Below are positions 24,900 through 64,000 of a DNA stretch of 64,000 nucleotides, piece by piece (the first letter of the stretch is position 1; every line of letters begins with the position of its first letter). Below the pieces are notes generated by a model. It was not told the DNA's origin and made no database searches. It saw only the letters and a list, made by a program, of their open reading frames with translations. Source of the DNA: Selaginella tamariscina (taxonomy: Eukaryota; Streptophyta; Lycopodiopsida; Selaginellales; Selaginellaceae); assembly GCA_003024785.1 (NCBI GenBank), contig PUQB01000078.1:434001-498000 (forward strand), given 5' to 3'. The position numbers and the translations under genes are program-made.

Positions 24900-25860
24900 T
24901 TCCCTGGTAGAAAACCAGTTAATAGATGTATAGCACCATGTGTATATAATGCATGTGTATACATTCAAATGTCTGCCGTGTGTGTACATATATATATATG
25001 AAACAGTGGTATTTAACTAAGACGGAGATGAACATATATATAAGGCACAGAAAGCATATGATACGTGATAGAGATCTGATATGATACTTTAAGAATAAAT
25101 AAATAAACAGATACTATTTCTTATTAATGGACAAACCAACACGAAGAATATGCTTAAAGTATATATTGTTTGTGCACTAGGAGACTAAAAAACATTGACC
25201 ACTTTTTATTTGTCGTACATAACGGTTGTAAATTCACCTATATATTTGGGGGAAAAAAAGAGATACACATGCGATATATTTAAACGCACGCAGACACATA
25301 TATGCATACATTATGTGCATATTACAATCATATGCACAAAGGGAAATTGCATGCTTATAGTACAACATAACTGTTCACAAAAGAGTCACGTGTATATAGG
25401 ATATTAAACTCTACAAACATGTGTATCAAATGAGTAACAAATTAAGCATATATGCATATGCATCTATTAACATACTAAATTACCCAATGGAAGAAGAAGA
25501 TATTTGCACACACACATATACAGTGGGTGTATATATGCGGTTACACCATGAGATCGTGACAGAAATTAAGGGAATTGTGTATAAAACAGATTAGATCGAT
25601 GGATTTTGAACAGAAAACATGCTTAAATACATGGATTTATGGGGGATTTTATGCAGAACATGAATTTCTACTTAGATTCGTGAACTTATACTGGATTTTT
25701 GAAACAATTGAATGTTCATGCAAATGTAGGATTTACCTTGTAAGAAAACAATCAATCACATGCAATGTAGGATCGACTCCGTAGATTTATTCACGCAGCT
25801 GCCCAAAGACTGGAGATTCGTACACGGATCTTGACCGCCCCGCAACAAACAAAGAGTCAA
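24900..25860 (-). promoter_or_regulatory. 5' leader intron and leader exon of FAD2
   Basis: On the minus strand an acceptor (TTCTACCAG) lies four bases before the FAD2 ATG, and a good donor (TTACAAG before GTAAATCC) lies at 25,736-25,737. This gives a leader intron of about 833 bp and a leader exon extending upstream to about 25,850. A long 5' UTR intron ending just before the start codon is a known conserved feature of plant FAD2 genes and often boosts expression. The intron is T-rich on the coding strand. Confidence 0.6.
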
Positions 25861-26641: not shown

Positions 26642-26783
26642 TTGGTGGAGGTGAGGGGCACCTCTAATTGTCCCTACGGAGTGCTCGGATTTTGTCTTTT
26701 TCAATTTTCTTTGTCTTCTTAGGTCTAGCTTTTCCATTGTCTAGATCTATTCCTTTCTTGTGGATTTTGTCTCTTCTTGTCCA

Positions 26784-27736
26784 TGAATCCACAACAGGCA
26801 AATCCCTTGTCTGTGGAGCAGTTACTCATGCAGTTGTTGGATGCCATGCGTGTGCAACTGAACAATCATTCTCAGTTGATGGCAGCATTCACAGTCCAGG
26901 GTACTCCTCCTACTCATGTTGCAAACCCCCGTGTCCGGCCGGATTTCTTTCGCGGAAATCCTGGAGATGATGTGTACCATTGGTTTGACCACTTCATTGT
27001 GGTTGCCACATATCATTCGTGGGACGGTGCTCAGTGTTTGCGCGAGTTTCCTACTTGTCTTCAAGGGACGGCGTTGCAGTGGTACAATGGTCTGGACGTT
27101 GCAACTCGTGGAGATTGGAATATTCTTCCAGAGATCTTCAAACGTGCATTTGGGCATGCGGACGACTGTGATGATGCTTTTCAGCAGTTGCATCGTATTC
27201 GTCAGGAGCCATCTGAGTCGGTGATGCAGTTTGGTGTTCGCTTTCGAAGCCTTTTGCTGCGTGCAGAACCTAACATGTCGGAACGCATCAAGTTAGGTAT
27301 GTTGTGGCCAGCACTTCGTCAAGACCTTGTGGGGCTTGTGCATGCACTAGCTCCAGTGACTCTTGACGATGCTTTGAGGCTGGCACAACGATATGAGTCG
27401 TCACCTCTCCCACTTGCGCCTTCACGTGCTCTTGTTCCACTCCATGTTGGGGATGGACCTGCTCCGATGGAGGTTGAGGCTGTTGCCGCTCGTGTACCAG
27501 CACAAGGTGGGGCCCGTGGACGAGGACGTGGACGTGCAGTTCGTTGTTGGGCATGTGATGAGGTTGGACACACGTATCGGCGCTGTCAATTTCCCGATTG
27601 GCGTCCCCCATTTCCAGGATGGAGGCCATGGCGTCAACAACGTCCGGTTGGTGCTGCTGCATGGAAGGTTGTGATGCGGTGGATCTTCCGGGAAACGACG
27701 AATCGCACGAGTAGAGGAGGGTCCTCGTGCGAATAA
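26784..27736 (+). CDS. gag (element C)
   Basis: Open frame of about 317 codons beginning MNPQQANPLSVEQLLMQ, at an ATG about 140 bp after the LTR. The capsid-like part (about residues 55-195) shows the retrotransposon gag pattern FFRGNPGDDVYHWFDHF ... LQGTALQWYNGL ... FGVRFRSLLLRAE. It is followed by a basic RGRGRGRAVR patch and one CCHC knuckle, CWACDEVGHTYRRC, near residue 255. The protein forms the virus-like particle and binds element RNA. The stop at 27,736 separates it from protease, which lies in another frame. Confidence 0.88.
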
Positions 27737-27740
27737 ATTA

Positions 27741-28970
27741 GTGACCCCTCCATCTTTCTTTCGGGAGTATCATCAAGGGGTTCACTCGGCACCAAATCAT
27801 CCGGTTTTCACTTTTCAAGCTCGTTTTAATCGCACGCCTCGTCCTGTTTTCCTTTCAGTGTTGGTGGATACAGGTTCAAGTTTGTCCTCTGTTTCTCAAT
27901 CTGTTGCTACACGTTGCAGCCTTCATTTGCGTCGTGCGGTAGAACCAGTCTTCATTCTGTACGGCAACGGACATACTCATGCTTGTTCCGGGATGAAGTG
28001 GACATTGTTGTTCGTGTGGATGATTGTGAGCTCGAGCTTCAATCTTTGCGGGTGGTGCCGAGTCAAGCTTTTCACCTTATTCTTGGTATGGATTGGTTAA
28101 CTCGCAATCATGCCAAGTGTGACTTTGAAAAGTCTCCCCCTTGTTTGACTCTCCCTCGTCTTTCTTCCATTCCTCTTACTTCTATTCCACTTCGTCCATC
28201 TGCTTCCACCTCTGCTTCCATCACTTTTGTCTCACCCTATTTCCAACCATTTTCCCTTCATGCTCTTCCTTTCTTCTTGGATCCATCAGATGATCGTCGT
28301 GCTGTAGTTGTTGATCAACTCAAGAAGGAGTATGCTGATCTTTTCAACTTCGACTTGTCATCTGGGGCCAAGATTGCGACACGCCACCCTATTCCAACTG
28401 GAGAAGCTAGGCCAATCAAGGTACCTGTTCGGCGTCGATCACCAAAGGAGCTCAAGATCTTACGAGCGAATGTCAAAGAGATGTTGGAGAAGGGTGTTAT
28501 CCGGAAGTCTCGAAGTCCTTGGGCGTGCGAACCTCACCTTGTGACGAAGCCTGATGGGAGCGTTCGATTCTGCATTGACTATCGCCCGTTAAATGAGGTA
28601 ACCGTCTCAGATGTGTACCCACTTCCTCATACTGCAGACCTTTTGGATCGACTGGGGCGGAGCCGTTGGTTCACCAAGTTAGATCTCGCATCTGGATATT
28701 GGCAAGTTCCGATGGCTGACATGGACATTCCCAAGACTGCTTTTCGGACACCATTTGGCCTGTACGAGTTCCTGGTGATGCCTTTCGGTTTGAGCAATGC
28801 TCCAGCAACTTTCCAGCGTATGATGGATGAGGTTCTTTGCGACATGCCGGAGGTGACTGCCGATTTCATCGATGATGTTTTGATCCATTCGGATGGAACG
28901 TGGGAGGAGCATGTCGGTGATGTACGTAAGGTTTTGGATCGATGCGGGAAGTTGGTTTGAAGTTGAAGCC
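27741..28970 (+). pseudogene. protease and reverse transcriptase (element C)
   Basis: The protease active site VLVDTGSSLSSVS is at about 27,860-27,900 in a frame one base off gag; the frame then returns to that of gag. RT follows: ARPIKVPVRRRSP, PDGSVRFCIDYRPLNE, KLDLASGYWQVPMAD, FLVMPFGLSNAPATFQR and the catalytic FIDDVLIHS near 28,865-28,891. The catalytic residues look intact. A further shift near 28,960 interrupts the thumb region. Confidence 0.85.
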
Positions 28971-28978
28971 ATCTAAGT

Positions 28979-29640
28979 GTGTTTGGATCAAAGGACACCA
29001 CTTATCTGGGTTATCGCATTTCACGTGAAGGTTTGCAAGTCGATCCTGACAAACTAGTTGCAGTTTTGAAGTTCCCTACGCCAAAGTGTGTGAATGATGT
29101 GCAACGCTTTCTTGGCAAGGTACAATATCTGGGTCGTTTTGTGGATCATCTTTCAGATCGTACTGCACCGTTGCGCGCGTTGTTGAAATCGTCAATGACT
29201 TCTTTTGTTTGGTCTAAGGATTGCAAGCAGGCATTTGCAGATCTCAAAGAGTTGTTGACGACTCCTCCAGTTTTGGCGTACCCGGATTACACCGTCCTTT
29301 CATCTTGCGTGTAGATGCTTCTGACATCGGCCTGGGGGTGTATTGATGCAGGAGAGTACGAGTGTTCCTGGCCAACGACATCCCATTGCGTACATCAGCC
29401 GTACATTGCAGCCAGCAGAGGTGAATTACTCCACGACTGAAAAGGAGTGTCTAGCAGCAGTTTGGGGTTTTGAGAAGCTCCATGCCTACTTGCATGGTTC
29501 GCGGACGTTGTTGGAAGGCGATCATGCAGCAGTCACTTCGTTGTTGAAGCGGAAGAATTTGATTGGGCGTACTGCTCGGTGGGCCTTGAAACTTCAAATT
29601 TACGACTTTGAAGTTGTTCATCCCAGGGAGTTCCATGGCT
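28979..29640 (+). pseudogene. RT thumb and RNase H (element C)
   Basis: The RT thumb continues as TTYLGYRISREGLQVDPDK and VQRFLGKVQYLGRFV. RNase H follows with LRVDASDIGLG near 29,305-29,335 (in a shifted frame), then TTEKECLAAVWGFEKLHAYL and TARWALKLQIYDFEVVHP. At least two single-base shifts occur here (about 29,300 and 29,345). Confidence 0.8.
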
Positions 29641-31152
29641 GATGCTGATGCTCTTTCTCGGGCTCCTCTTCCACCTTCTCTCTCTTCTGTTGCCCCAGAG
29701 GAACCAGTTGTTCCAGCTTCAGTGGACTTTTTGGATGAAGATTCCGTACCATCAGCAGTTGCTGTGCTTGACGTTCAGTGTCCGCAGAATGCAGAGTTAG
29801 ATTTGCCGTCTTTGGATGAGGTTCGGGAAGCTCAAAAGGTTGAGCCGTGGATTCGAAGGCTTCGTGATGGGTTTGAGAATCCTGCATCACTTGCTGATGA
29901 CTTGCCTTTCAGGCATTTACATTCACAGTATCGCCTTCAGGATGACCTTCTTTATTTTGTGGGGACTGATCCAGATGATCCTTTGCGGTTGGTGGTGCCT
30001 TCAATCTTCATTCCACGCTTCCTCCATGCTTACCATGACTCTCCTATTCTTGGCGGGCACATGGGACATCGTCGGGTGATGGAGAAGCTGCACAGATCTT
30101 TCTATTGGCCGGAGTTGCGAGGAGATGTGATTCGGTATGTGCGTAGTTGTGTGTGGTGCCAAGCTCGCAATACTCCCCCATGTGCTTCGGAAGGACGGTT
30201 GGAGTCAATTGCAGTTTCTCGTCCGTTTGAATTGGTGGCATTTGATTTGATGGGACCTTTTCCGCGGTCAACTGCTGGTAACGAGTACGTTATTATTGCT
30301 TCTGATTACCTAACTCGTTGGGTAGAAGTTGGTGCTCTTGCTAGTGCGACTGCTTCTGCTGTTGGTCAGTTTCTCCTGAATCGGGTCGTGTTTCAGCATT
30401 CTTGTCCGGAGCGAATTCTCTCGGATAATGGTCCCGCATTTATGGCTGAGGCATTTCATGTTTTGACATCTCGATTAGGGATACGCCACACTTTCACAAG
30501 TGCTTATCATCCTCAGACAGATGGTTTAGTGGAACGGCTGTCAGAACCTTCAAGGGGATGATCGGAAGTATGTGAACTTTCAACATTCAGATTGGGATGG
30601 TTATCTGCCGTCTCTCCGATATGCTTATGTCACTGGAGTTCAAAGTTCCATTGGTACTTCCCATATAAGCTTTTGTATGGTCATGACCCGGTGTTGCCAA
30701 CGGAGTTGGGTTTGCCTTCTCGGTTACCGCGAGCTGCTGATGCTAGGTCGTGGGATCGGTATCTGACGAGCATTCTTCCATTGGTTCGTGGAGTCAGCAG
30801 AACACTTGGGCCGCGTACAAGTAGGACAACAACAACGCTACAACTCGCATCATCGTCCTCCTGCGGAGTACAAGGTTGATGAACTGGTGTTGGTTCGTTT
30901 TCCCAAGCTTACGGTACGTGGTTTAGCTAAGAGTCTCCTTCCTCAGTGGAAAGGACCGTATCGAGTGCTACGGCAAGTAGGCCACAGGTTTATGAGGTTC
31001 GGCACGACATTCAACCCGATCCTCCGGAGATTGTACATGTACAACGGTTGAAGCATTTTGTGCAACGGGAACAAGTTGTGCCGCCTACAGATCCACCAGT
31101 GCCTCCTCCTGATGTTCCTCCAGATCCGGGCCCGTCTACAAGAGAACCCTAA
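29641..31152 (+). pseudogene. integrase (element C)
   Basis: The HHCC domain lies at 30,050-30,170 (GGHMGHRRVMEKL ... CVWCQARN). The catalytic core has FDLMGPFPRS, RILSDNGPAF and TDGLVERL. The C-terminal part is in other frames (30,572-31,051) and shows a GPY/F-type module (KSLLPQWKGPYRVLRQVG). No chromodomain is seen. The tail before the LTR is proline-rich. Confidence 0.85.
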
Positions 31153-38389: not shown

Positions 38390-39761
38390 TCAACAACTTC
38401 CTCTTTTACCATTGCTTTAAAATGACCCGACTGTTGTGAGGGTGCCCAACATTGTCTAACGACATGACTAGGCTTGTTACAATTATAACATGTCAGAACC
38501 TTGCCTGCAAATTGCGAGGGAGTAGACTTTGGAGCCGAGCCCTTGGCCTATTGAGGTGGTGGTAACGCTAACGGTTTCCAAGATCCGATGAGTCTTGATG
38601 TATTCAAGACTCACCCGACTGTTGTGAGGGTGCCCAACATTGTCTAACGACATGACTAGGCTTGTTACAATTATAACATGTCAGAACCTTGCTTGCGAAT
38701 TGCGAGGGAGTAGACTTTGGAGCCGAGCCCTTGGCCTATTGAGGTGGTGGTAACGCTAACGGTTTTCCGAGATTTGATGAGTCTTGATGTATTCAAAAAC
38801 TTCAAACTACCAACAAAGGGACTTACATTTCGATTCGATGGTGATTGATCTAGTCGCCTATCAAACCTTCTAAACCTAGACTTTGGAGGAAACCTCTTCA
38901 ATTTAGGTTTTGTTTCCTCCCCTTTGTACAAGTCCTCTAACGACATGCCATAAGCAACCTTTTGAGTTGCCTCTTGACATTCCCGATAGCTTGTTGGCTT
39001 GTACCTTAAGATTTCCCTTTGCATCTTCTTATTCAAGCTAGCCATGAAGCAACTTCAAGCTCTTCATCATCGCTCATATTTGGCACCAATTGCCGTACAC
39101 TTTCAAATCGATAAACGTGGTCCATTGGACTTCCTCAAACTCCCTGTTGACAAAGTGTCAGGTCAGCACGCAATCGCAAACCGAGATCATACAGCATATA
39201 CTGCTTTTTGATCTCCTTTTTATGTGTTTCCAACTATTCGGTATCCATGTTCATCTTCAACAATTCGCCACCAAGTCTTAGCTTCTTCTTTAATAAATTG
39301 CTTGGCACATGAACCTTTTCTGTCTCTCTCATGGAAATAGCCTCGAAATAGCTTTTCATATCATATAACCAGTCATCCAAAACCTTGTAATCCTTTGAAC
39401 CCATGAAATTCAAAGGCTTTACTGGTTGGAATTTGCTAGGACCTCCACCACCTACTTCCGTCGAAGAATCTGATTCAGAGGAACCTGACTCTGAGTCATG
39501 CTTCTTCTTTTTTTTCCGTGGTTGCGGAAGATCTGGCACTGCAGTATTTGTCGGAATCCTAACGGCAACATTATCAATTCTGTCGTTCAACCCCAAAACA
39601 TCCCCTCGAAGTTCATTTAGGGCATCCATCATTATTTCTCGCCAACCAAGTCGTTGTCTAACTCTAGGGGGCCGACCTGGATCAGCCTCATCCATCTCCT
39701 CATTTTGAGCCTCTGTGATAACCCTCTTTGCCTTAGGCTCTGGTTGCTTTCTTTTGCTCAT
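38390..39761 (-). pseudogene. gag with duplicated zinc knuckle (element E)
   Basis: Starts at the ATG at 39,761 (MSKRKQPEPKAKRV). An acidic/Ser-rich low-complexity linker comes before the capsid (PLNFMGSKDYKVLDDWLYDM, near 39,330-39,410), which continues to 38,671. The CCHC knuckle CYNCNKPSHVVRQC occurs twice because of a direct tandem duplication of 188 bp (38,425-38,612 and 38,613-38,800). Frameshifts separate the parts. Confidence 0.8.
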
Positions 39762-41786: not shown

Positions 41787-42932
41787 ATGTCGGTGTTAGT
41801 TTTGTTTAATTTTGGTCACAGTGATGAGTTTATCTCTTCGGTGCTAGTGGAGAAATTAAACTTGTCAACTAAGAGAATTGATCCATACACGGTAGAAGGA
41901 GCTGCTACTTCATCACAAGAACAAAGTGCCTATGTAAAGCTCACATTAGAAGTTGGAGATGTGTCTTTCAAGGAGTAATTCTTTTTGACAGAGCTAAGGT
42001 GTTATGATCTCATCCTTGGGATGGCTTGAATGGAGAAGTACAATCCATGGCCTGATTGAATTAGGAAGGAGGTAGAGGTGACTCTGAGTGGAAGGAGCCA
42101 CGTCCTCAAGGGAGTTGGTTACACTCTTACTTCTAAGCTTCTATTGACTACCGCTTTAAAGAATTCAATGTGTGTTTTAAGGTCATTTGATGATGAATTT
42201 TATTACATCCACTTCAAGAAAGTTAATGCTACCAATGTGAAGGAGTCACTATTTACCAATCAACAATCAACAATCAACAATTTGACCAAGGTGGACGTTT
42301 GGTCAACTCTTGTTTAGGAGGTGTTGGGGGAGTTCAAGGATGTCTTTCCCTCTTATCTGCTTGCAGGAGTGCCACCATTTTGCGGAGTGGACCATGAAAT
42401 TGAGCTTGAGTATGGTGTTAAACCAATTTCAAGGAGTCCATATTGTTTGAGCCTCTTGGAGGAGCTGGAGGTGAAGAAGTAAGTGGAAGAGCTATTGGTA
42501 CAAGAATTTATTTAGCCTAGCAAGTCATCTTATGGAGCTCTAATGCTCCTTGTGCGAAAGAAGGATGGATTGATGAGATGTGTATCGATTATCATGCCTT
42601 AAATAAGGTGACTATGAAGAATAAGTTTCCTATGCCAATAACTAACAATCTGTTTAAGTGGCTTGCAAGGGCAAGGTGGTTTACCAAAATTGACTTATGG
42701 AGCATATTGTTGTGAGAGAATAGGACGTTGCTAAGACAACATTCAAAACCCGAATTAGTAATTTTGAGTTTCACGTTATGTTGTTTGGCATGGTGAACGC
42801 CCCTGCGACGTTCATGCAGTTAATGAATTCCATTTTTACTTATTATATCGATCATCTTGTTTAAGTCTTATTAAATAATATTTTTAGCTATAGCAGAACT
42901 TTAGAGGAGCATGTGGAACATCTACATCTAGT
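41787..42932 (+). pseudogene. protease and N-terminal RT (element D)
   Basis: The protease site reads LFNFGHSDEFIS, where D-x-G is replaced by N-x-G. RT follows: FKDVFPSYLLAGVPPFCGVDH, then broken fingers and palm with stops. The catalytic YxDD is represented by LLNNIFSYS near 42,870-42,895, so both Asp are Asn. The frame ends in HLHLV at 42,932, where DNA-1 begins, and resumes at 50,911 with LQILKEKKLYAKFSK. Confidence 0.75.
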
Positions 42933-42959
42933 ATGCACGTTGTAACTAAAGTGGGCATG
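42933..42959 (+). repeat. left terminal inverted repeat of DNA-1
   Basis: Begins ATGCACGTTGTAACTAAA and ends GGGCATG. Matches the reverse complement of 50,880-50,906 at 25 of 27 positions. The AT-rich subterminal DNA that follows is shared with DNA-2 up to 43,123. Confidence 0.9.
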
Positions 42960-43133
42960 ATACGTGAAAATGGGAATATAAAATAAATTACTAATTAATA
43001 CTTAAGTTTTAATTATTAATTAATCATTCAATTAATATGTAATTAAGCCTTAAATATTAATTAATTAATTAATTAATCCTTCAATAACCTTACTTAGTTA
43101 GGAATATTCCTAAAATATCTTAGGCAGGCCTTT

Positions 43134-43505
43134 GGCGGCGGGATTAATCCCGCCCGATTCCGCGCAGGGCAGCGGGATTAATCCCGCCGCCCAGGCCCTT
43201 TACTCGGGCCCTAGGTGGCGGGATTAATCCCGTCGGACGCCAATGCCCTGTGCAGAATCCGGCGGGATTAATCCCGCCGCCTAAGCCCTTCAGACAGGCC
43301 AATGGGGGGGGATAAATCCCGCCCGATTCCGCGCATGGCATGCGTACGCAACGAGATTAATCCCGCCGCTTATGAGGCTAACAAAATAGCCTGCCTGAAG
43401 GGCGGTGGGATTAATCCCGCCGCTGAGGGTCTAACCATATAGCGGCGGGATTAATCCCGCTGCTACACACGTCTCACCATATAGCGGCAGGATTAATCCC
43501 GCCGC
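43134..43505. repeat. palindrome array 1 (nine GCGGGATTAATCCCGC-type units)
   Basis: Nine units of the palindrome core CGGGATTAATCCCG lie roughly 35-50 bp apart, about 200-570 bp inside the left terminus. About four are near perfect; the others carry one or two changes (for example AGGATTAATCCCG, GAGATTAATCCCG). Apparent reading frames here only translate the repeat. Confidence 0.85.
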
Positions 43506-43812
43506 TACGCACATATATATTTATATATATGTATATGTGTGTAGGAGAGTGCGTGTGTGTGCCAGAGATAGACAAATCAGATAAAATTATACTGATACAC
43601 AAATTATCCGATACACAAATTATATGTATATTGTGTGTATGCGTGTGTGAAACAAATAAAATCATACAGATAAACAAACAAATCAATAAAATTATATATA
43701 TATATGTGTGTGTGTATATATATATATATAGGAGTGTGCGTGTGTGTGCGAGAGATACAATTAACAAATCAATAAAATTATACAGATACACACACACACA
43801 CACACATATATA

Positions 43813-43865
<53 letters not shown>

Positions 43866-43921
43866 AGGAGTGTGCGTGTGTGTGCGAGAGATAGAGATCT
43901 ATAGAGAAGAGAGAGAGAGAA

Positions 43922-43955
<34 letters not shown>

Positions 43956-44130
43956 GTGTCACACAAATATATATATATCTATGTGTGTGTATATGTATAC
44001 GAGTGTGCGTGTGTGCGAGAGATAGAGATCTAAATTATATTATTAAGATACACACACATATAAATATATAAATAAATAAATAAACTCAGAGGAGTGTGCG
44101 TGAGAGAGAGAGAGAGAATCTCACCTGTGT
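43506..44130. repeat. compound TA/GT/GA microsatellite block
   Basis: Alternating (TA)n, (GT)n and (GA)n tracts with repeated GGAGTGTGCGTGTGTG-type joints at 43,541, 43,731, 43,868, 44,001 and 44,091, so the block itself is a higher-order repeat. Tyr/Ile-rich frames over it are artefacts. Confidence 0.8.
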
Positions 44131-44489
44131 GAGAGAGAGAAGGAGATTTCGCCGCCGCCGCCTTACAAACCCTAGGAATATACTTAAACCCTAAAAGGAA
44201 TAGAATATATATTAACCCTAATCGAATATTCCTTCTAAGAATATACTTAAACCCTAAAAAGAATAAACTATAGATTCGCCCTAAACGAATATTCTTTCAT
44301 TATATTATCAGCATGTACGTGTGCGTGTGCGTGGGTGTATCACATACACCCCAAGAATAAATATCATGCAGGGGTTTAACACGTGTGTGTCCATGAGAGT
44401 GTTAAAGTTTCACGTGCAGCGATATATATATACACATAGTATATTATACACATAGACATACATACATATTAGTACATATTAATATTAAG
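44131..44489. other. unique DNA with two AATATACTTAAACCCTAAAA repeats
   Basis: No gene seen. The segment contains CCGCCGCCGCC and two copies of a unit of about 70 bp beginning GAATATACTTAAACCCTAAA (44,177 and 44,239). Confidence 0.5.
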
Positions 44490-45140
44490 AGACAGAGTAC
44501 AGATCATGTATGGTGTGTATGTATGAGAGAAGAGTGACAATACATATTATGGATCATGCATGGTGTGTATGTTTGAGAGAAGAGAGACAGTACATATTTA
44601 CATGGATCATGCATGGTGTGTATGTATGAGAGAAGAGTGAGAGTGTTAACAAATTAAATTCATACACATTGGATATATTAGTACACACATATACACACAG
44701 TGTATACACACAGACATACATACATATTACATGTGTAAATTCAATGTGTTACATAGGGTTTAGGGTTTAGGGTTTAGGGTTAGGGTTAGGATGGATCATG
44801 CATGGTGTTTATGTATGAGAGGAGTGAGTGTTATACACATATACATTATACATATTACATAATATTGTAACATCAGTACATATTATGGATCATGCATGGT
44901 GTGTATGTATGAGAGAAGAGACAGGCTACATATTATGGATCATGATCATGCATGGTGTGTATGTATGAGAGAAGGGATTATGCATGGTGACACTGTGTAT
45001 GTATGAGAGAAGAGATGTTTAACAAATGAAAATCGTACACATTGCATATATTATATTAGTACACATATATACATACACACGTGTATACACACAGACATAC
45101 ATATATATTACATGTGTAAATTCAATGTGTTACATACACA
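44490..45140. repeat. minisatellite with TGGATCATGCATGGTGTGTA units and telomere-like patch
   Basis: About seven units of GGATCATGCATGGTGTGTATGTATGAGAGAAGAG type, interleaved with two copies of a longer unit of about 110 bp (44,645-44,755 and 45,008-45,135) ending AAATTCAATGTGTTACATA. At 44,755-44,790 a run of TTTAGGG/TTAGGG repeats is embedded between units. Confidence 0.75.
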
Positions 45141-46019
45141 CACACTGAGTACATATAGATCATACATGCGTTGAACATGATGTTTTTCAATAAAGAAGCA
45201 ACATATAATTTCTCAAGTTTGGTTTAGGGCAATGTGCATGTGTGTGCATATGTGTCTCTGTAAGTGCTTCTAATGCGTGTGCACATGTATATATAAATTT
45301 ATGATTGTGTTTATATATAATATGTGCAAAACAAACATCGAATAATTAAGAAAATAATATTAATATACACACTATGAACATATTTTAAATTATACATAAT
45401 AATATATGATTTTATCTAATATATAGCCATATATAGTTTTAATAATATATATTAATTTAATATTGATAATAAGGTTTAACACTAGAATATTCTTGAAATA
45501 ATAACAAATTAATTGAGAAAATCCCATTAATATATACAATGTAGAATAATTACTGAGATAATTAAGAATAAGACTAATTTAATTATGATAATCATGTTTA
45601 ATATTGGAATATTCTTTGAATATTAAGAAAATAACAAAATATCCCATTAATAGTAGGAAATGTAAATTAATTACTCGAGTAATTAAGAAAATAATAATAA
45701 TAAACAGACTATGAATATATTTTAAATGATACATAATAATATATCAATTTATTTATTGTATTAGTGTATATATATATATATATATAAACTTAATAATATA
45801 TACTTGAATATTAAGAATGTAGAATAATTACAAAAATTTCGTAATATTAAACAGCTTGAAGCACTTGAATGACATTAAATGCAATTTTAAAACACTCATT
45901 GGAATTGGAGAGTATATATGTCAGACTGTCGGTTATTTGTTTCAACTCATCTTAAATTTTCTTTTTGTTATTTCAAAAATTTTGAATTTCTGACATAAGT
46001 ATTGTCTGACATGTAAATT
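45141..46019. other. AT-rich interior of DNA-1
   Basis: No gene seen; very AT-rich with loosely repeated TAATTAAGAAAATAATA blocks (near 45,345, 45,500, 45,610 and 45,680). Confidence 0.6.
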
Positions 46020-46204
46020 TGAAAATACATTTAATTTCCCACTCAAATTCAGATCTGGTTCTTTCTCCGGCAAGGGTTTCTTTATTTCTTTATTTTCACT
46101 CTTCAGATTTTCTTTTTTCTTCTTAGTGATCAGCTCAGGAGCGACATTAAATTGGGTGCGCTATTGTTTATAGGAAAGCACGGCGCCTTCAGTGCTGTTT
46201 ACAA
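46020..46204 (+). promoter_or_regulatory. probable 5' leader exon of the DNA-1 transposase gene
   Basis: This is a pyrimidine-rich segment of higher GC content than its surroundings. It ends in a consensus splice donor (CAA before GTAAGTATT at 46,205). A matching acceptor (TTATGTGCAG) ends at 47,284, seven bases before the first ATG of the coding region. The inferred leader intron (46,205-47,284, 1,080 bp) encloses palindrome array 2. Inference from splice signals only. Confidence 0.45.
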
Positions 46205-46371
46205 GTAAGTATTATAAACAAATTTAAATATATTTATAAAGATTCACTCTCTTACATTCTCTCTTAAATTTTAGAATTTAGGGATTTAGGAATGCATTAG
46301 GATTACAATATATTCTGTTAGGGATTTATCCCGTTTAAATATACTTTTAACTTAATATTCTCGGTTAGCCG

Positions 46372-47140
46372 GGGCGGCGGGATTAATCCGGCCATTTTTT
46401 TTTGCCTCTTTGAAGAGGTGGCGGGATTAATCCCCACCATCTCTTTCATAGCTATGGCAGAATTAGTTCGGGCAATGCTTCTCCGCCTCTTAAAAAGAGC
46501 GGCGGATTAATCCCGCGATAACTCTCTCAACTGATAATGATTTACTTGAATTTATTAAAAGAGTTGTCTACGGGATTAATCTCGCCAACCATTTTAGGAG
46601 GCAGAGAAGGGTGGCGGGATTAATCTCGCCATTCCCTTCCTGTTTTAAATATTTGTGGGCAGAATTCATCCCGAATCTCTTTGAAATCATAGTTTCGGAG
46701 AAGTTGTGGGCGGGATTAATCCCGCCGCTTATTCCCCGTCGTCAGAGTTGTGGGCGGGATTAATCCCGCCGCCTATTCTCCTTCGTCAGTGTTGTGGGCG
46801 GGATTAATCCCGCCCCTCTTCCTCGTCGGAGGAATTTGCGGCGGGATTAATCCCGCCGATTCCCTCCGAGGAAGAGCGGCGGGATTAATCCCGCCGACTT
46901 CCTCGTCGGAGGGAGCCGCGGCGGGATTAATCCCGCCGCTACTCCTCGTCGAGGGAGTCCGCGGCGGGATTAATCCCGCCGATTCTTCTGGGGAGGGAAT
47001 CGCGGCGGGATTAATCCCGCCGACTCTCTCCGATGGGTAGAGTCGCGCGGGATTAATCCCGCCGATTCCCTCCGAGGAAGTCGGCGGGATTAATCCCGCC
47101 GACTCCTCTGGGGAGTCTGGGCGGGATTAATCCCGCCCAT
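46372..47140. repeat. palindrome array 2 (GGCGGGATTAATCCCGCC)
   Basis: About 18 units in tandem. The first seven (46,372-46,690) are degenerate; the last eleven have a perfect CGGGATTAATCCCG core, starting at 46,711, 46,755, 46,799, 46,842, 46,880, 46,922, 46,965, 47,006, 47,048, 47,085 and 47,122. Spacing is 37-44 bp, mean about 41, near four helical turns. Spacers also contain small inverted motifs such as CCTCGTCGGAGG. Each unit can form a hairpin. A frame reading GGINPA/AGLIPP repeats is only translation of the array. Confidence 0.92.
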
Positions 47141-47290
47141 CAGTTATATTAATAAAGCATGAGATATTATTTTATATATAATTATGTATTATTGCACATG
47201 CATATTATTAAGCAACCGCAGTTATGATTTCTTAGAAATATTGCATAAACAGATATCATAAATAACACAATTATTTATGTGCAGGACAAT

Positions 47291-50200
47291 ATGTATAATA
47301 CTGGAGATAAATATGTCTTCTTCGGAACAACGAGATAGTTGGCACTGGAACTGTGGAAGTTCGAGATGATAATGCATCATGTCACAATATTGCCCAAGGA
47401 TCTTGTGTGTACGTATGGGTGAACACCATTTTCAAGCATGTTGAGGTTCCGGAATGGAATTTGAGGAGGGTTCTCCTGTATTGTGGAATTTGGATGAAGT
47501 CAAGGCTGACACAGAATATACAGAGTCACAAACAAACAGTAGCACGAGTTTTCCAGATGATGGCTTGCCTGCTGTGATGGATGAGGTGATTCTCTTTCTT
47601 CATGAGATTGAGGTTGGGAGAGGCATCATCACAGCTATAAATCCAATGGAAGCAGTGTCAGAAGAGAAACTAGGGTCCGACTTCGTGGGTGTAGTTGTGA
47701 CAGAGGTTTCACCTAATGGCACTTTGCATCCTGGATCCCTCGTGAGGTGGCGAACATCTGAATTAAGACGGCAAGATGGTTCAACATATTCTGGGTTGGA
47801 TTTCAATAATAACAACCCGGAAGAACAATCATATTTGAAGAGGTTCCTTGCATTGGTCCTATTGTAAGAAAAAGGCGATTCATGGGTTGCAGATCTTCCC
47901 CTACATGTTTCAGCAAGAGGGAAGATGGATCCTACATCTTCCGAAAGTGTTATGAGCATTTCCACGATTGACTGCTGCAAGAAGAAGTGTTGTCAGATGG
48001 CAGACCGGAATGAAATTACCCAATGTAGACATGTCTTTCGTACGCTCACCCAAAAGCAAAGGCATGAGTTTGTATATGCTGCACTAACTGGGTGTATTGA
48101 TGGAATGGCTTCGGACACAGGTTATCAGAGTACATCCATGGTATTTAATAAGGTGGCCATCTGCTTCAAAGCTTGGTACAGTATATATGGGATCCCAAAG
48201 ACCACGTTCTACCGTCGGAGGGATGAGTGGTTAGATGGAGCGCGAACCTCAGTACATGGGAACACTGGCTTGGTCAAAACCCGCTCTCACATTATGGCAG
48301 CCATAGAGATACTCAAGGCTTTTGTGGAAGCAAATGCAGACAGGATGCCTCACAAATGCCGAACCACAAATGCAGGGGTCAGGGAAAATCTCAAGGTTTT
48401 GCCTTCGATCTACACTCAATTGAAGCTGTGTGAACATGTGAACAAGTGCCTCAGCTTGATGGGGCTGCAAGCAATCTGCACTGGTACCTTCAACAACATA
48501 TGGAATACTCATTTTAAGGATGTGGAGATTGCAAAACACTCTAGCTTTTCCAAGTGTGACACTTGTACATCATTGAAGGCTGCAGAGGCTTGTGCAAAAA
48601 CCTTGGTGGAGATCACTGCCATTCAAAAGAAGATGGAGGCCCACATGATTGCACAACAAACTTGCCGGTCTCAGTACTATGCACACCGCATGCTTTCTGT
48701 GTCACGCCCATCAGAGTACCTGTGCTTGATCCATGACAAGATGGATCATTCAAAGACCAGCATTCCAAAGCTCGTTGCAACACCAAAGTGCCTTGGAAAT
48801 GTCATGAAACTTCCATTTCATTGACAGGTGTGCTAACACATGGACACGGTTGTGAATCATATGGACACTTTTCACTTCCACATTGGTCTAGCGACTCCAA
48901 TTTCACTATTGGGTCGTTGGCCATGTGTTTCAGAAACCTTGAAGCCCACTCACAGACAAGTCCTATCGTGATCTCAAAGTGAAGAAACAACACCTTCAAC
49001 CTTTACATAATGCTCTCATGAACACGTCTGCACTTGAGGCTACTTGGGAATATAGAGGCATTGTCAGCAGCCTGCACAAAAAACAGATGGCCCTGTTGAG
49101 AGTTCAGGTTCAGTGGAGGGATCTAGCTCAAATAGTGTACATGTGTCCTCAACATCAAATAAGCTTCCTCGTCATTTGCTTTTACAGATGGATAATTGTG
49201 CAGGCGAGAACAAAAATAGGTAAATCATTTTACTTAAGGGTTTCTCAAGCTCATACTTACTTTTATTTTCTAGATATGTGCTAGCATACTTGTCAATGCT
49301 TGTTGCCAAAGGTGTGTTTGAAACAATCACGCTCAGTTTTCTTATGGTTGGTCACACTCATGAAGATATTGATGCGTTCTTCAGCAAGGTCTCCAACTCT
49401 ACAAAAAGGACAAGTGCACTTACCTTACCGCATATGATGAATCTTTTTGAAAATTGCATCTCCAAAAAAAGTTGTGCTTTGCTTGTGACTGAGGTGCCAG
49501 ACTTCAAAAAATTTCTCAAGGAGTATATAAAAGAGGGGAGTGATTCTTTAGTTGGTCACCTTGTGCCGCTACAATTCTTTTTCTCCATACGAGATGGTAT
49601 ACCTATTATGCAGTACAAGTTACGGCCATCAGAGCAGGAGTGGTTACCGAAAGAGGGGTTAATGCTCTTCAAAAGTGGAGAGAATGGAAAGCCACTTCTC
49701 CCAGAAGGACAACCAGACCCTATTCCATTGAGTGCCCAGCTCAAGGAACAAGAGGTTATTATTGATGGCATCAAAAAATATGTGGCATGGGTTCAAAAAT
49801 CGATGCCAAAGAATTCTGATAAGGCAACTGGTTACTCAGAACTATATAAGCATGTGGTTGACTATTGGGAGACTGTTGTTCGAGAGTTGGAAGGGCCTAC
49901 TGTCACAAGTACAGAATTGCAACACCCTTTTTGGCCTAAAACAAGGTGGCGAGAGGAGATTGAAATGACATCACTGAGCACAGACGACATAGAAGCCAGT
50001 AGTGATGTGGAAGTGCAAACCCCACACTTTGTTGGACAAAGGAACCAAAAACCTAAAGCATACTTTGATTGCTGCCAGGATCTTCAAAAACTAATGATGG
50101 TTCTCATTACTCCAGATGCGTCATATAATCAGCCTATTTGGATGGGTCAAATTATCGACACACCTGAAGTAATCACAAAAAATAGTATTGTTAAGGTTGC

Positions 50201-50420
50201 ATGGTTCAAACCACAAAAAAGGCGACACGAGAAGGAGAGCGAAAGATATAATGGATGCCTAGAGAAAACATGGTCTCCCAATCAAAAAGACCCAGCATGT
50301 TTTATAAATGTTAAATCCATTCGATATGGGTGGATGTCAAGAAGCGTTGATAAAGTCACATTAACAAAACTGCAAGGGAATGTATGTTTTCTGAAGCTTA
50401 AAGCAATTACAAAATTATAA
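47291..50420 (+). CDS. putative transposase, DUF7869-like, of DNA-1
   Basis: Read in several frames: 47,291-47,453, 47,454-47,867, 47,925-48,824, 48,825-49,219 and 49,274-50,420, with a spliceable 54-nt intron at 49,220-49,273 (AATAG before GTAAAT; TTTTCTAG before ATATG). The core resembles DUF7869-type proteins of eukaryotic mobile elements. It shows KCDTC, then LIHDKMDHSK, SLTGVLTHGHG, QMDNCAGENKNRYVLAYLSM (across the intron) and GHTHEDIDAFF, with acidic residues spaced as expected for a DDE/RNase H-like fold. The N-terminal region has a GTGTVEV-type module; the C-terminal region (about 50,040-50,350) has a small beta-rich BAH/Tudor-like stretch (IWMGQIIDTPE ... VKVAWFKPQ). At least three frameshifts remain (about 47,330, 47,455 and 48,820), so this copy may be inactive or the sequence may contain indels. 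Confidence 0.75.
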
Positions 50421-50879
50421 AATATCATATATTTAATATTCATAATTATTATAAACTCTTTAATAATAGTACCAAATTGTTTACTTAACTATATAAATTT
50501 AAAAAATGATATGGAAGATTGACTATATTATTATAGGATTTATATATATATTATTACTACTACAAATTTTTAATTAATAATGTTATATTTAAATATTAAT
50601 ATTTTAATAACAACATCAATATTTATATAATGTACCTCTTATGCTCTTCCTTAATTGTTATATTAGGCAATATATTATATAATTTAATACCTTCTACTTT
50701 TATAATGTTATTAATTTTTGTTCAATGAATGCTATAATTTATTAAAGGGTCGAATACAAAATAGAATATTCTAAAGAATATTCTGTTTTCAAACATATAT
50801 TCTAAAGAATATTCCTTTAATATTAGAAAATGCTAATTAAATAGCTAAAATTGTAATTATTAGGAAATGGGACTATAGC
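50421..50879. other. AT-rich right subterminal region of DNA-1
   Basis: Downstream of the transposase stop. AT-rich with AGAATATTCTAAAGAATATTC palindrome-like motifs near 50,763-50,812. No gene. Confidence 0.6.
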
Positions 50880-50906
50880 CATGCCCATTTTAGTTACAAC
50901 ATGCAT
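50880..50906 (-). repeat. right terminal inverted repeat of DNA-1
   Basis: Its reverse complement begins ATGCATGTTGTAACTAAA and ends GGGCATG. Immediately followed by the TAGT duplication and the resumed element D frame. Confidence 0.9.
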
Positions 50907-52961
50907 TAGTGTTACAGATTCTTAAGGAGAAGAAATTATATGCTAAGTTCTCAAAGTGTAAGTTTGCTAAGAAGGAGGTGCAATACCTTGGGCATATTGT
51001 TTCTAAGGACAATGTTGCTCCTGATCTTAAGAAGGTAGATGCAGTGAGGCATTGGCATGTGCCTAAGGACATACAAAAGCTCAAGAGTTTTATGGGCTTG
51101 ATTAATTACTATCGTTGGTTCATTCAAGGCTTTAATCATTTAGCTCTTCTTTTAACATAATTGATGAGGAAGAATGTTGCATTTGAGTGGTCTGTAAGTC
51201 AAAGGGCAACATTTGAAGCTTTGAAGACTGCATTGACAATAGCACTAGTGTTAGTTATCGCTAATGAGAACGAGTCTTATGAGGTGTAGACATATGTGTG
51301 TGGTTATGCCATTAAAGGAGTTCTTATGCAAGTTGGTCATGTCATTGCTTTAAGAGTCAAAAGTTAAATGATACGGAGTGTTGGTACTCGACTTATGATT
51401 AGGAACTAATGGCTGTTTTGCATCCCATGCGCACCTGGAAGCACTATCTACATAATGGACGTCACTTCAAAGTGTTTATTAATCACAAACCTTTGAGGCA
51501 TTTCTTAGATCAAAAGGATATAAATGCTAGGTAAGCTCGTTGGTTAGTGTTTCTACACGCCTTTTCAAGATTTATGATTGTCCATTATAAGAAGAGAAAG
51601 GAGAATGTGGTTGCAGATGCTCTTTCTCATATCAGACGATTAAATGTTATTGGAAGGAGCGAAGAAGGTTTGGTTTCTTTTATTCGCAAAGCACAAGCTA
51701 AGGATCTAGCTTGTCAGCAGCGTCTAAGTAGTTTGGTAGAGCCTTATGCTGAGTAGAATGGTTTACTACTATACAAGCAACACCTGGTAGTGCTTAAGAC
51801 GATGAAGCTTGTTGCAGTAGTCATGCAGGAGATGCATGATAGTCTATTTGTTGGACATGGCGGAGAGGACAAGATGTATGACTTGGTGAAACGTTGATTC
51901 TTCTTGCCTAACATGGAGGACATTGTGGAGTATGTTTGCACTTGTGCTAAGTGCTCCTAAAAAGTGGCTTAGCATGGATTGCTGATGCCTTTGGAAGTGC
52001 CTCAGGGAAGATGGGAGAGTATTTGTATGGATTTTATTACACATCTTCCAAGGACACTACATTGCAATGAATATGTGTGGGTCATTCTGGATCGCTTGAG
52101 CAAGTATGCTAAGTTCATTCCATTAAAGAAGGATGTAACAGCACTCGCATTGGTGTATCTGATGCTAAGCATGGGATGCTAGAGAACATCGTTAGTGACC
52201 AAGATAACAAGTTCACTTCGGCATTTAAGTAAAGTTTTATAGAGGACTCGGCACTAAGGTTAACTTTAGTAGTGGAGATCACCTATAGTCAGATGGCCAA
52301 ATTGAGCGTGTGAACTAGGTTCTAGAGGATATGTTGAGAACATGCGTGGCTGAGAAGCAAGGATAGTAGGACAAGTTCTTGCATTTGGCTGAGTTTGCCT
52401 ACAACAATAATAAGCATAGCTCTTTGAAATGTAGTCTATTTTATGCTTACAAAGGTAGACATCCTTGGTCTTCAACATATATTGGAATATGTTAAGAAGT
52501 GGTGAGAGAGGATGTTGAAGCTCATAGCTTGGCTATGGAAATGGATGAGATACTTCTGATATGTCGGAAGAATTTACTTAAGGCAAGGGACCAAGCTAAA
52601 AGGCTAGTTGATGAGAAGCGCACTTACATGTAGTTCAATGTCGGAAACAAAGTGTTTGTGTTAGTCATCTTTGCTTCCTCATTGAAGCATAATTCTCTGC
52701 AACCATTGCAAACTCAGAAGTGTGAGAAGCTAAGTCCTCGGTATGCTAGTCCATACAAGATCCTTGAGAAGATCAATAATGAGGCTTACAAGTTGAGGTT
52801 GCCTGAGGGAGTGCAACTACATCTTGTGTTTCATGAGAGTCAACTAAAGAGGGCCCTTGTACGTGGAGAAGTACTAGTATACTCACTTGAAGAGTCAAAG
52901 GAGGATGTTTGAAGCAACTTGTTTTAAACAAAAAATTGTTGATGTAAATCTTTGTAAAGTA
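50907..52961 (+). pseudogene. RT thumb, RNase H, integrase and GPY tail (element D)
   Basis: The thumb (EKKLYAKFSKCKF, VQYLGHIVS, KLKSFMGLINYYRWF) is well preserved to 51,160. RNase H (51,190-51,630) and integrase (51,800-52,640) are present but riddled with stops. Recognisable traces include SICMDFITHLPRT near 52,020-52,060. The tail 52,652-52,912 keeps a GPY/F-like module (SPRYASPYKILEKINNEAYK ... HLVFHESQLKRA). F is inserted 50 bp after the stop. Confidence 0.75.
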
Positions 52962-61416: not shown

Positions 61417-61443
61417 ATGCACGTTGTAACTAAAGTGGGCATG
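61417..61443 (+). repeat. left terminal inverted repeat of DNA-2
   Basis: Identical over 27 bp to the DNA-1 left terminus (42,933-42,959). Confidence 0.85.
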
Positions 61444-61701
61444 ATACGTGAAAATGGGAATATAAATAAATTACTAATTAATACTTAAGTTTTAATTATT
61501 AATTAATCATTTAATTAATATGTAATTAAGCCTTAAATATTAATTAATTAATTAATTAATCCTTCAATAACCTTACTTAGTAAGGAATATTCCTAAAATA
61601 TCTTAGAATATTCATATTATTCTAAAAATAGTTTACAATAATGAAGAAATACTATCAAACATAATTACAAATGAAATCATTTTCTTATCAACATGTTTTT
61701 T

Positions 61702-62850
61702 TTATAAATACTTTCTTTCTATCATACAAAGAAATCTTTTCATTTTGTCTAAATCATCACTCTCCGGATTAATCAAATCATTTTGGTCAATATCTTGATG
61801 TTGTTGCCACCACTTAACACTCTCACGAATGCAATTGGGAGTTGCCATCCTTGTTAATACATAAGATGTGATAAGAGAAGGTCTGCATAAAGGCTCATCT
61901 AAAAACTGACGTTCCTTAAGAATAATATTATAAAGCGCCCGGTTGCTATCCTTCATTTTATAAAATTCAATATCACGAGAAAGAAAAGCTTCAGGAAATG
62001 TATGATACGGTGGATACTGCTCACAAAAATTTTCGAGATTCTTCTTTCTGAGGCACGTATCCAAGTAGTTCACTAGCTCATCCATGATATCGGTATCAGA
62101 ATATGGATCGAAAGTGATTGGATGAATACAAGCAATGTTTTGGTTGAGCATAGCCTTCTGAGGAGAGTCGTCTACTACTAAATATGTGCATTCTTCATTA
62201 TCCTTAAGCGACTGATCTCCCCATGAGTCCCAATTATTCTTTCATTCTTGAAGAAGTATGGCTTGCTTTCCTTTCTTATATTGTGAAATTCGAGAGGTTT
62301 ATAACATTCGCTGGTCAAAAATCCAATCTTTACGAATCACCTCTTCTGCAACACTACAATGTTTCTTAAGTAAATCAACAGCGGTGTTAAGTTATGAATC
62401 TGCATGCATGACCAAATCCCCACAAGCGCACCCATCTCCTTAAGCTTTTGAAAGAGACGATCCAACCCTGGACGAAAAATAATATCATATCGAAATTTAC
62501 CATGACAAGGAATGAAATCTCCTTGTTTGATTTCTGTTTTTCTATCCTCGGGCCTTTGTCGATGAAGCAGAACACCATTGACATCCAACAACACAATATG
62601 GCCATGAGTAACATGAGATAGCGTTGCCTCTTGAATACTTTGCAAATCACTTGTTTGCTCCCTTTCACATTTATCCGTTGCCACTATTCGTTGCCTATCC
62701 CTTCATCATTTAATTGTACATCATCCTTACAAGATTCAGATATTGCATGCGCTGAAGAAATTGATTTCGGAACTGAAGCCAATAAAAATGATGATGAAAA
62801 ACTGAAGTGGCCCCCATGGTAACGATGTTTTGAGCTGCATTATTATCCAT
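61702..62850 (-). pseudogene. FCP1/SCP-like HAD phosphatase domain protein, broken
   Basis: FCP1-homology proteins dephosphorylate phosphoproteins such as the RNA polymerase II tail. On the minus strand a likely start is at 62,850 (MDNNAAQN). A frameshift near 62,690 precedes HIVLLDVNGVLLHRQ, the HAD motif I. Its second Asp is Asn, as in the plant DLNG-type subfamily. Then come FRPGLDRLFQKLKEMGALVG and IWSCM. Around 62,200-62,400 the reading jumps between frames (HCSVAEEVIRKDWIFDQ in one, KPYFFKNERI in another). It recovers as ECTYLVVDDSPQKAMLNQN, the motif III/IV loop, and ends ERKYL at 61,702. At least three shifts make it a pseudogene unless the sequence has errors. The N-terminus is Ser-rich. 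Confidence 0.62.
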
Positions 62851-63143
62851 TTCCTGCATGAACTCTGTCATTCTGACATGTGGCACAAGAAATTGTCGCC
62901 AAACCCCTCTCTTACCTCATGGCAATGCTGAAAATCCATGTTCTCAATTATTTCATTACATCTGCAAAATGATAATTAGCTGACCTTAAAATTATCAAGG
63001 TATATTATTTACCTTGTTAATGTGTGACCCATGTTTGAACTAAAAGCTTCATTAATCCTTGAGAATTTATTTTCTGTACAAATATAAAAGAAATATACAA
63101 AAATGCCTTATGTTACACTCATTTACAACTATTCATCACTCTA
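62851..63143. other. spacer between the FCP1-like and methyltransferase-like genes
   Basis: AT-rich, with no gene seen. Probably 3' UTR of the methyltransferase-like gene and promoter of the FCP1-like gene, both on the minus strand. Confidence 0.4.
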
Positions 63144-64000
63144 TCAATTCATTATCAATTCTTCTTCGCTATTACCTTCTGAATGAGGCGAAGAAGGTCT
63201 AAGCCGCTTGTGAGATGGTTCAAGATCTTCTGCATCTTCTATTGATGTTTCCATGGGTCCTGGAGTGTGCGAATGTTCTGTACTCCTCGAGATAACTTCC
63301 GGTCTAATATCTGATTGATGTTCGTTCTCAGACTCCGAGATTGAACCAGATTCACCTTCAGAGCTATCGCACTTATCTGGAGGGAACTTTCTCAAATACG
63401 CCTTTATGGATTCGTTGGGGTACTCAGTTGAGACCCAATCTATCCACTTGTTCAGGTCCTCAACCATGGTCTTATCCTTCTCAACGGCAAACACACATGT
63501 ATGCCGAAGGTAACACTCCTTCAAGACGGACCCCCTAGTGCAGTAGTCAAAAACCCACGCATCACTGTGAGGACCCCTGATCAAGTTGACGATGCTCCGT
63601 GCCGCTTGACTTGTAATGTTTGGATAACGTACATTGCCGAATACGTCACTCATACCTATCGGTGTATCGGATGGAGGTTCAGGGCCGTTGGAGTGCAAAC
63701 AGATGCCTGGCCAGTCATTTGGAAGCTTGAAATTGTTTGGCGCATTCCTAACAACCAAGTGAACAACAGTATCAATGCACTTGGGATTAGCATCGTTCAT
63801 ATAAAATCCTGTCCAACGATGTCTATTCTTCTTGGCGAAGGCGAAGGCAAAAGTATCGGTGACATGAGCAAGAATCAAGAAATAAATACCTGAAAAAGTA
63901 GGTATCAGTGAAGAGCGCAAGCATGAATTCAATAATAAATACCTTCTATGTATATGCTTGCACGGCTAAGTTTCTCCACCAGATCCTCTAGTGCCCTATC
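63144..64000 (-). CDS. permuted DNA/RNA methyltransferase-like protein, 3' exons
   Basis: Two minus-strand exons: 63,943-64,000 (continuing outside the window; LEDLVEKLSRASIYIE) and 63,144-63,889, joined in phase by a 53-nt GT-AG intron. The second exon is open for about 248 codons. The strand GIYFLILAHVTDTFAFA and TVVHLVVRNAP precede DAWVFDYCTRGSVLKECYL and CVFAVEKD. In N4/N6 (beta-type, circularly permuted) methyltransferases the SAM motif D-x-F-x-G-x-G-S followed by an acidic-ended strand lies C-terminal in this way. Here motif I is degenerate (DYCTRGS). The tail (about 110 residues) is acidic, Ser-rich and ends with a possible nuclear signal (HKRLRPSS). No obvious damage. The function call rests on fold pattern only; it could be catalytically dead or unrelated. 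Confidence 0.5.

Follow-up and report, generated by a model that had tools for sequence, protein, structure and literature searches.

Palindrome arrays in putative leader introns of a Selaginella tamariscina DNA transposon as candidate operator sites

An array of 18-bp palindromes upstream of a transposase gene

In a 64,000-nucleotide stretch of the Selaginella tamariscina genome (contig PUQB01000078.1; hereafter the window), the 18-mer palindrome GGCGGGATTAATCCCGCC is repeated at short intervals upstream of the putative start codon of a transposase gene. Why would a non-coding region hold so many copies of one sequence, and are they read as DNA, folded as RNA, or left behind by mutation? At up to three mismatches, we found 24 matches to the 18-mer in the window and none in 100 dinucleotide shuffles. 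The initial annotation had described eleven perfect palindromes at 41-bp spacing, and the core of this array (array 2; 46,709-47,137, unstranded) does comprise 11 units with a mean step of 41.1 bp (44, 44, 43, 38, 42, 43, 41, 42, 37 and 37 bp), but ten of them, not eleven, are perfect, the unit at 47,046 alone carrying one mismatch. Together with a leading part of seven weaker units with 1 to 6 mismatches (46,376-46,675, unstranded), whose steps recur in similar form in other copies, the array reaches the 18 or so repeats counted before. Mismatches drop toward the gene (Spearman rho -0.70, p 0.001, 18 units), in agreement with the earlier remark that the units worsen away from it. The further suggestion that bound dimers would sit on nearly the same face of the helix did not hold up: phasing at 10.5 bp was absent from the core (Rayleigh p ~0.43) and from the 18 units together (0.24), and 186 of the 274 palindrome steps pooled from all fetched copies measured 44-46 bp, or ~4.2-4.4 helical turns. 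Because such steps are not whole turns, and no phasing is seen in the window, the argument from a common face fails.

Array 2 lies in a putative leader intron on the plus strand (46,205-47,284), and the consensus donor and acceptor proposed for it are borne out by a splice-like GT at 46,205 and AG at 47,284. Of 15 copies of the surrounding element, 14 have the exact donor string and 13 the exact acceptor string, with 951 to 1,235 bp between them in the 12 copies that have both.

Anatomy of the transposon

Array 2 is part of a DNA transposon copy, E1 (42,933-50,906, plus strand, 7,974 bp), which we delimited by its TIRs, its TSD and comparison with two longer copies, E2 and E3. The 27-bp left (42933-42959, plus) and right (50880-50906, minus) TIRs match at 25 of 27 positions and are bordered by the TSD TAGT (42929-42932 and 50907-50910, unstranded). 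E1 was inserted in a Ty3/gypsy pol gene whose halves remain on both sides (42233-42932 and 50907-51606), and joining the flanks restores the gypsy pol reading frame. Fragments of Ty3/gypsy gag, RT and integrase are also present at 3266-4126 and 26777-30561. E2 (14,411 bp, TSD CCAA) enters the window with its left end (61417-64000, plus), while the remainder, including its arrays, extends beyond the window edge on contig C1148. E3 measures 14,367 bp; its left TIR is damaged, and its flanks show no matching TSD. A fourth, shorter member (C1:312117-323972, ~11.9 kb) is bounded by intact TIRs and the TSD ATGT, and its second transposase exon is open. TIRs with a 4-bp TSD are present, in all, in three of the four elements (TAGT, CCAA and ATGT), E3 being the exception.

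The longer copies E2 and E3 carry two divergent genes, one on the minus strand in the left arm and the transposase gene in the right arm. A second series of palindromes, which the initial annotation did not mention, precedes the ATG exon of the minus-strand gene (array 1), just as array 2 precedes that of the transposase gene. In the window, array 1 (43,137-43,503, unstranded) consists of 9 units, 2 of them perfect, with no mismatch gradient (rho 0.39, p 0.29) and no demonstrable phasing at 10.5 bp (p 0.06); it begins only 204 bp from the left end of E1, a left-arm-deleted member that retains just the terminal 191 bp of that arm ahead of array 1. In E2, the units of array 1 start at 5,169-6,632 and those of array 2 at 9,782-10,619, and a lone unit is found at 3.4 kb. 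Past array 1, on the side of the minus-strand gene, follow TTTTGCAG, a short ATG exon and the donor-like GGGTAAGA; these leader signals are present in 7 of 8 copies, and the eighth, L033, was scanned only in an orientation in which they could not match. Both arrays are located shortly upstream of a start-codon exon that has an acceptor-like site before it, and the placement in a putative leader intron, proposed at first for array 2, is kept across copies and mirrored at the second gene. The ~3 kb region flanked by the arrays is rich in simple repeats in the window, and includes five TTTAGGG-type telomere-like units (44754-44787), which, like the liverwort proteins among the transposase homologues described below, are in keeping with a plant host.

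The coding region of the transposase opens with a putative start codon; its first part, up to the first conserved Asp (47291-48824, plus), is frameshifted in E1 and open over 659 codons in E3. It is followed by a second exon with the motif VGHTHEDID (49278-50420, plus), which matches Pfam PF25273 (DUF7869; E 3e-25, 89.4 bits, cut-off 26). In a 33-row alignment numbered after the homologue P0029, the D-D-E residues were conserved in 12/12 (D269), 24/24 (D353) and 28/31 (E392) of the rows with a letter at each position. In its motif, and in a fold that may be RNase H-like, the transposase resembles DDE-type enzymes. The structure model of its first half was too weak for use (pLDDT 66, pTM 0.45), and a search of PDB sequences with the second exon gave no match. 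One piece (47445-47864, plus) weakly resembles PF03017, TNP1/En/Spm, below the cut-off (E 0.05), and P0029 bears a weak likeness to an RFX DNA-binding domain that likewise falls short of the cut-off (E 3e-5; 25.1 bits, cut-off 27).

In the left arm of E2 and E3, the minus-strand gene comprises several open stretches. Those in the window, all on the minus strand, are an open stretch at 61702-62241, a NIF-type (FCP/SCP) phosphatase-like segment at 62337-62702 (PF03031, E 8e-5, 22.8 bits, cut-off 21.8) and an exon without a known domain at 63144-63965, which was stop-free in all 141 scored copies (5,855 candidates). The NIF/FCP-type segment is possibly a captured host gene; aside from it and the DUF7869 exon, none of the transposon protein pieces scanned matched a Pfam family above the cut-off, and NCBIfam returned nothing for seven pieces of the minus-strand gene. 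A ParB-like identity, considered by eye from a short motif, found no support in Pfam, PDB sequences or a protein search.

Homologues of the second transposase exon were found in liverworts, corals, molluscs and other organisms; they share the DUF7869 domain with it, and we compared them by that domain alone. Pfam gives DUF7869 the title "domain of unknown function", and we found no literature on it among open-licence papers. Its association with a transposon leads us to suggest that this domain, present in animals and liverworts, may be a transposase domain. A search of viral contigs yielded one contig with a single 18-mer, dissimilar to E2, and confirmed no DUF7869 relative; plasmids searched with the array gave no match.

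The position of the arrays bears on whether they serve transposition itself, as enhancer-like transposase-binding sites for synapsis or cutting. A DDE-type transposase would suit such a role; in the 14.4-kb E2, however, the arrays begin at distances of ~5.2 and ~9.8 kb from the left end, away from the termini, and C1:312117-323972, despite its intact ends, TSD and open second transposase exon, keeps array 2 and has no array 1 within the part examined. We consider a role in transposition highly improbable.

A high-copy, recently amplified family

The genome (300.7 Mb) contains 27,128 perfect copies of GGCGGGATTAATCCCGCC, against none for the reversed control, and 59,903 sites at up to two mismatches. 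TIR ends, also at up to two mismatches, number 4,092 (2,097 + 1,995), roughly 2,000 element equivalents. We scored the best 108 of 7,408 candidates for the second transposase exon. Stops are absent from 106 of them, and 59 have an identical score of 833.0 bits; 19 of the 108, C1:312117-323972 itself included, share the score of the exon in that copy. The best 141 of the 5,855 candidates for the minus-strand exon are all open, and 48 of them, including the window's own, tie at the top with 100% identity. Scoring the best candidates alone favours intact copies; nevertheless, so many identical exons point to a recent amplification of the family, which looks recently active, so that expression, binding and methylation could be studied directly.

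We examined 100 of the 27,128 perfect sites, all of them on contig C1. They fall into 11 regions, nine of which are clear copies of the element and two of which resemble diverged relatives. Two sequences that are only partly element-like (L040, 2808-5120; L041, 3677-5469) contain palindrome arrays of irregular spacing, interrupted by gaps of several hundred bp, and probably represent other subfamilies. This distribution speaks to the possibility that the palindromes are sites for a host transcription factor, recruited so that the element is expressed in dividing or germ-line cells. Each palindrome can be read as two inverted, E2F-like GGCGGGA half sites or as having a homeodomain- or GARP-like GGATTA/TAATCC core; such GC-rich half sites with dyad symmetry, in arrays that at both genes separate the central region from the start codon, are what captured sites might look like. 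Yet all 100 sites belong to the element or its likely relatives, a requirement of 18 bp would be long for such a factor, and the E2F likeness lacks the usual TTT. On balance, we find sites for a host factor very unlikely.

Conservation and turnover of the arrays

The initial annotation had proposed looking for the array in other copies, and had stated that relatives with an intact transposase and no palindromes would speak against its reading. Both anchors of array 2 were found in 10 of the 12 sequences scanned, the exceptions being L033, a left-arm piece, and L040, a diverged relative; all 10 carry the array, with 14-19 units at steps of mostly 44-45 bp. Six places upstream of open transposase exons were also targeted, and five of them have the array. 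The sixth, L066, has no palindromes and no element sequence either, so it says nothing in one direction or the other. In the five copies, array 2 has 13 to 22 units. The core is perfect in 11/11, 12/12 and 16/17 units in three of them, and less well kept in L063 (8/12 core units perfect) and L068 (2/13 units perfect); when all fetched copies are taken together, perfect units make up 208 of 482. Array 1, targeted in two copies of this kind, was present in both, with 19 and 22 units.

Within the arrays, the palindrome stays while the spacers diverge, flip and vary in number. Palindromes in the core of array 2 in the window are 99% identical and spacers 66% (shuffled spacers, 53%); the corresponding values for array 1 are 88% and 52%, and the spacers of one array resemble those of the other at chance level only. 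Between copies the picture is different. In pairwise comparisons of 10 copies, palindrome columns differ by 4.2%, flanks by 4.6 and 4.8% and spacers by 14.9%, this last figure coming mostly from the core, with its gain and loss of units and unsure alignment, since leading spacers differ by 4-8%, as flanks do. At A/T sites, the copies differ by 1.06% in palindromes and 1.7-1.9% in flanks. Across copies, the palindromes are scarcely better preserved than their flanks, and for this reason we read constraint from the comparison of unit with unit. Transitions at CpG and at other C/G positions left no clear methylation footprint (in palindromes, 2.2% at CpG and 2.1% at the others; in the exon, 2.0% and 1.0%).

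This turnover raises the question of whether the arrays are a functionless product of mutation, with hairpins extruded in replication leading to template switching and unequal exchange, so that blocks multiply and invert and recombination between palindromes homogenises them. Several observations are what such a process would produce: spacers occur in both orientations in the window and in all five arrays examined, and two of these (L064 and L067) show alternating orientation over most of their length; in 8 of 13 arrays the spacers repeat best at a period of 164-182 bp, or about four palindromes (6 of the 8 at 171-177 bp), a figure that stands without a shuffled control, the other five arrays (E2 array 2, L035, L037, L065 and L070) having another best lag; the number of units differs between copies; and flanks are about as conserved as palindromes. 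Mutation alone would leave unexplained, however, why one 18-mer is found in two arrays with unrelated spacers, both before a start codon, and why perfect symmetry survives in several cores, as homogenisation by itself would be expected to spread mutations as readily as it removes them. We regard a mutational origin without function as unlikely, though it is the alternative we take most seriously.

Independent change of the palindrome arms

If the palindromes were kept as hairpins, a change in one arm should tend to be matched by a pairing-preserving change in the other. Among 482 units we counted 16 such changes on both sides against 11.1 expected, which is no excess (arms shuffled, maximum 21 in 500 shuffles), and hairpin-driven explanations, one of which the initial annotation had offered, gain no support from compensatory changes. 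Covariation between the two flanks of a palindrome was also considered and dismissed, as no signal was obtained when flanks were swapped (p 0.06 to 0.66). Since the arms change independently, it is the letters that are kept and not their pairing.

These results weigh on the possibility of a device at the level of RNA, in which the leader, once transcribed, would form long duplexes or a series of hairpins and act through splicing, stability or the production of small RNAs. The arrays are located in putative introns and are predicted to fold strongly as RNA (z -20.5 for array 2 and -16.0 for array 1), and the real arrays fold better than versions with palindromes kept and spacers shuffled (z -7.4 and -6.1, 60 shuffles each). 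Strong folding is trivial, nonetheless, where perfect palindromes are combined with inverted spacers. Besides showing no excess of paired changes, spacer halves are no more complementary to each other than swapped halves (p 0.56 and 0.19), arrays with randomly flipped spacers fold on average at least as stably as the real order, and an Rfam search gave no matches. A functional RNA structure is, in our judgement, quite unlikely.

The palindromes as candidate operators

The two arrays, each before a start-codon exon, share one 18-bp motif of dyad symmetry, which is kept in both; a device that reads its letters, as a DNA-binding dimer would, fits best. We propose that the palindromes of this young, high-copy DNA transposon may be reiterated operator sites, bound by a dimeric protein that the element itself probably encodes, a reading to which we would give an even chance. 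A homodimer, most likely encoded by the element, with the DUF7869 transposase region or the product of the minus-strand gene as candidates, would bind the 18-bp dyads cooperatively and regulate both divergent genes together. It might do so either by keeping the leaders open against silencing, as VANC or TnpA would, or by autoregulating transcription, and expansion and contraction of the arrays could supply the number of sites. A more specific version goes further: mirrored intronic operator arrays would control both genes of a 14-kb DUF7869 type with a 4-bp TSD that our searches did not find described, the arrays being built, in several copies, from four-palindrome blocks of about nucleosome size with alternating spacers, and the ~27,000 dyads would form a genome-wide platform for one element-encoded dimer acting in trans against silencing. 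This version we put forward tentatively, as possible rather than expected.

VANDAL elements are Mutator-like (MULE) elements, and they offer a first comparison. According to the portion of the report consulted, the VANC21 motif, nine letters long (YAGTATTAY), is reiterated in the introns and upstream regions of the genes of Arabidopsis VANDAL21 as tandem repeats that change fast (PMC5735166). As summarised in a partly consulted source, VANC proteins and RNA-directed DNA methylation have overlapping targets, although the overlap is less obvious for VANC21, and TnpA activates Spm, which correlates with demethylation (PMC10398659). In these excerpts, VANDAL21 and VANDAL6, with their VANC proteins, resemble the present element in having a short reiterated motif in introns and upstream non-coding regions of their own genes, and in the change of unit number between related copies. 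The element described here, known from its sequence alone, differs by its 18-bp perfect palindrome and its DUF7869 transposase, the second transposase exon matching DUF7869 only and no Mutator-like transposase.

CACTA elements are a second comparison. The motif recognised by TnpA in En/Spm, as far as the excerpts describe it, is likewise reiterated; there the binding protein is the element's own, whereas here such a protein is only proposed. In the soybean CACTA element Tgmt*, the consulted part of the report describes asymmetric subterminal repeats, with 14 stem-loops possible, lying within 159 and 732 bp of the ends and built on a motif that differs between subfamilies (PMC2613891). Arrays of inverted motifs able to fold back are common to Tgmt* and the present element, but the CACTA motifs are, in those excerpts, subterminal, whereas the arrays of the present element are internal (in E2, at the distances from the left end given above) and precede the start codons of two divergent genes. 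The two also differ in TIR sequence, TSD length and transposase family: the termini here begin ATGCA... and the TSD has 4 bp, in place of CACTA termini and a 3-bp TSD. Judged by its features, the present element belongs to neither the VANDAL nor the CACTA type, and the nearest published parallel that we found, as far as the excerpts allow the comparison, appears to be VANC21. In the open-licence literature searched (titles and the beginnings of abstracts), we found no description of such palindrome arrays, nor, among open-licence papers, of a large two-gene DUF7869 transposon type. Should the palindromes be operators, they would represent an independently built case of a transposon that packs its own leaders and introns with protein-binding motifs, one falling outside the Mutator-like and CACTA elements, and would allow testing whether motif packing is a general way to escape silencing.

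Finally, two further features were observed outside the transposon copies of the window. Among ten open frames scanned, the sole clearly host-like match was a fragment of a fatty-acid desaturase gene (PF00487) at 24417-24989 on the minus strand, which had no match among phage records, and a 188-bp unit is present at 38425-38796 in two tandem copies that are 96% alike.
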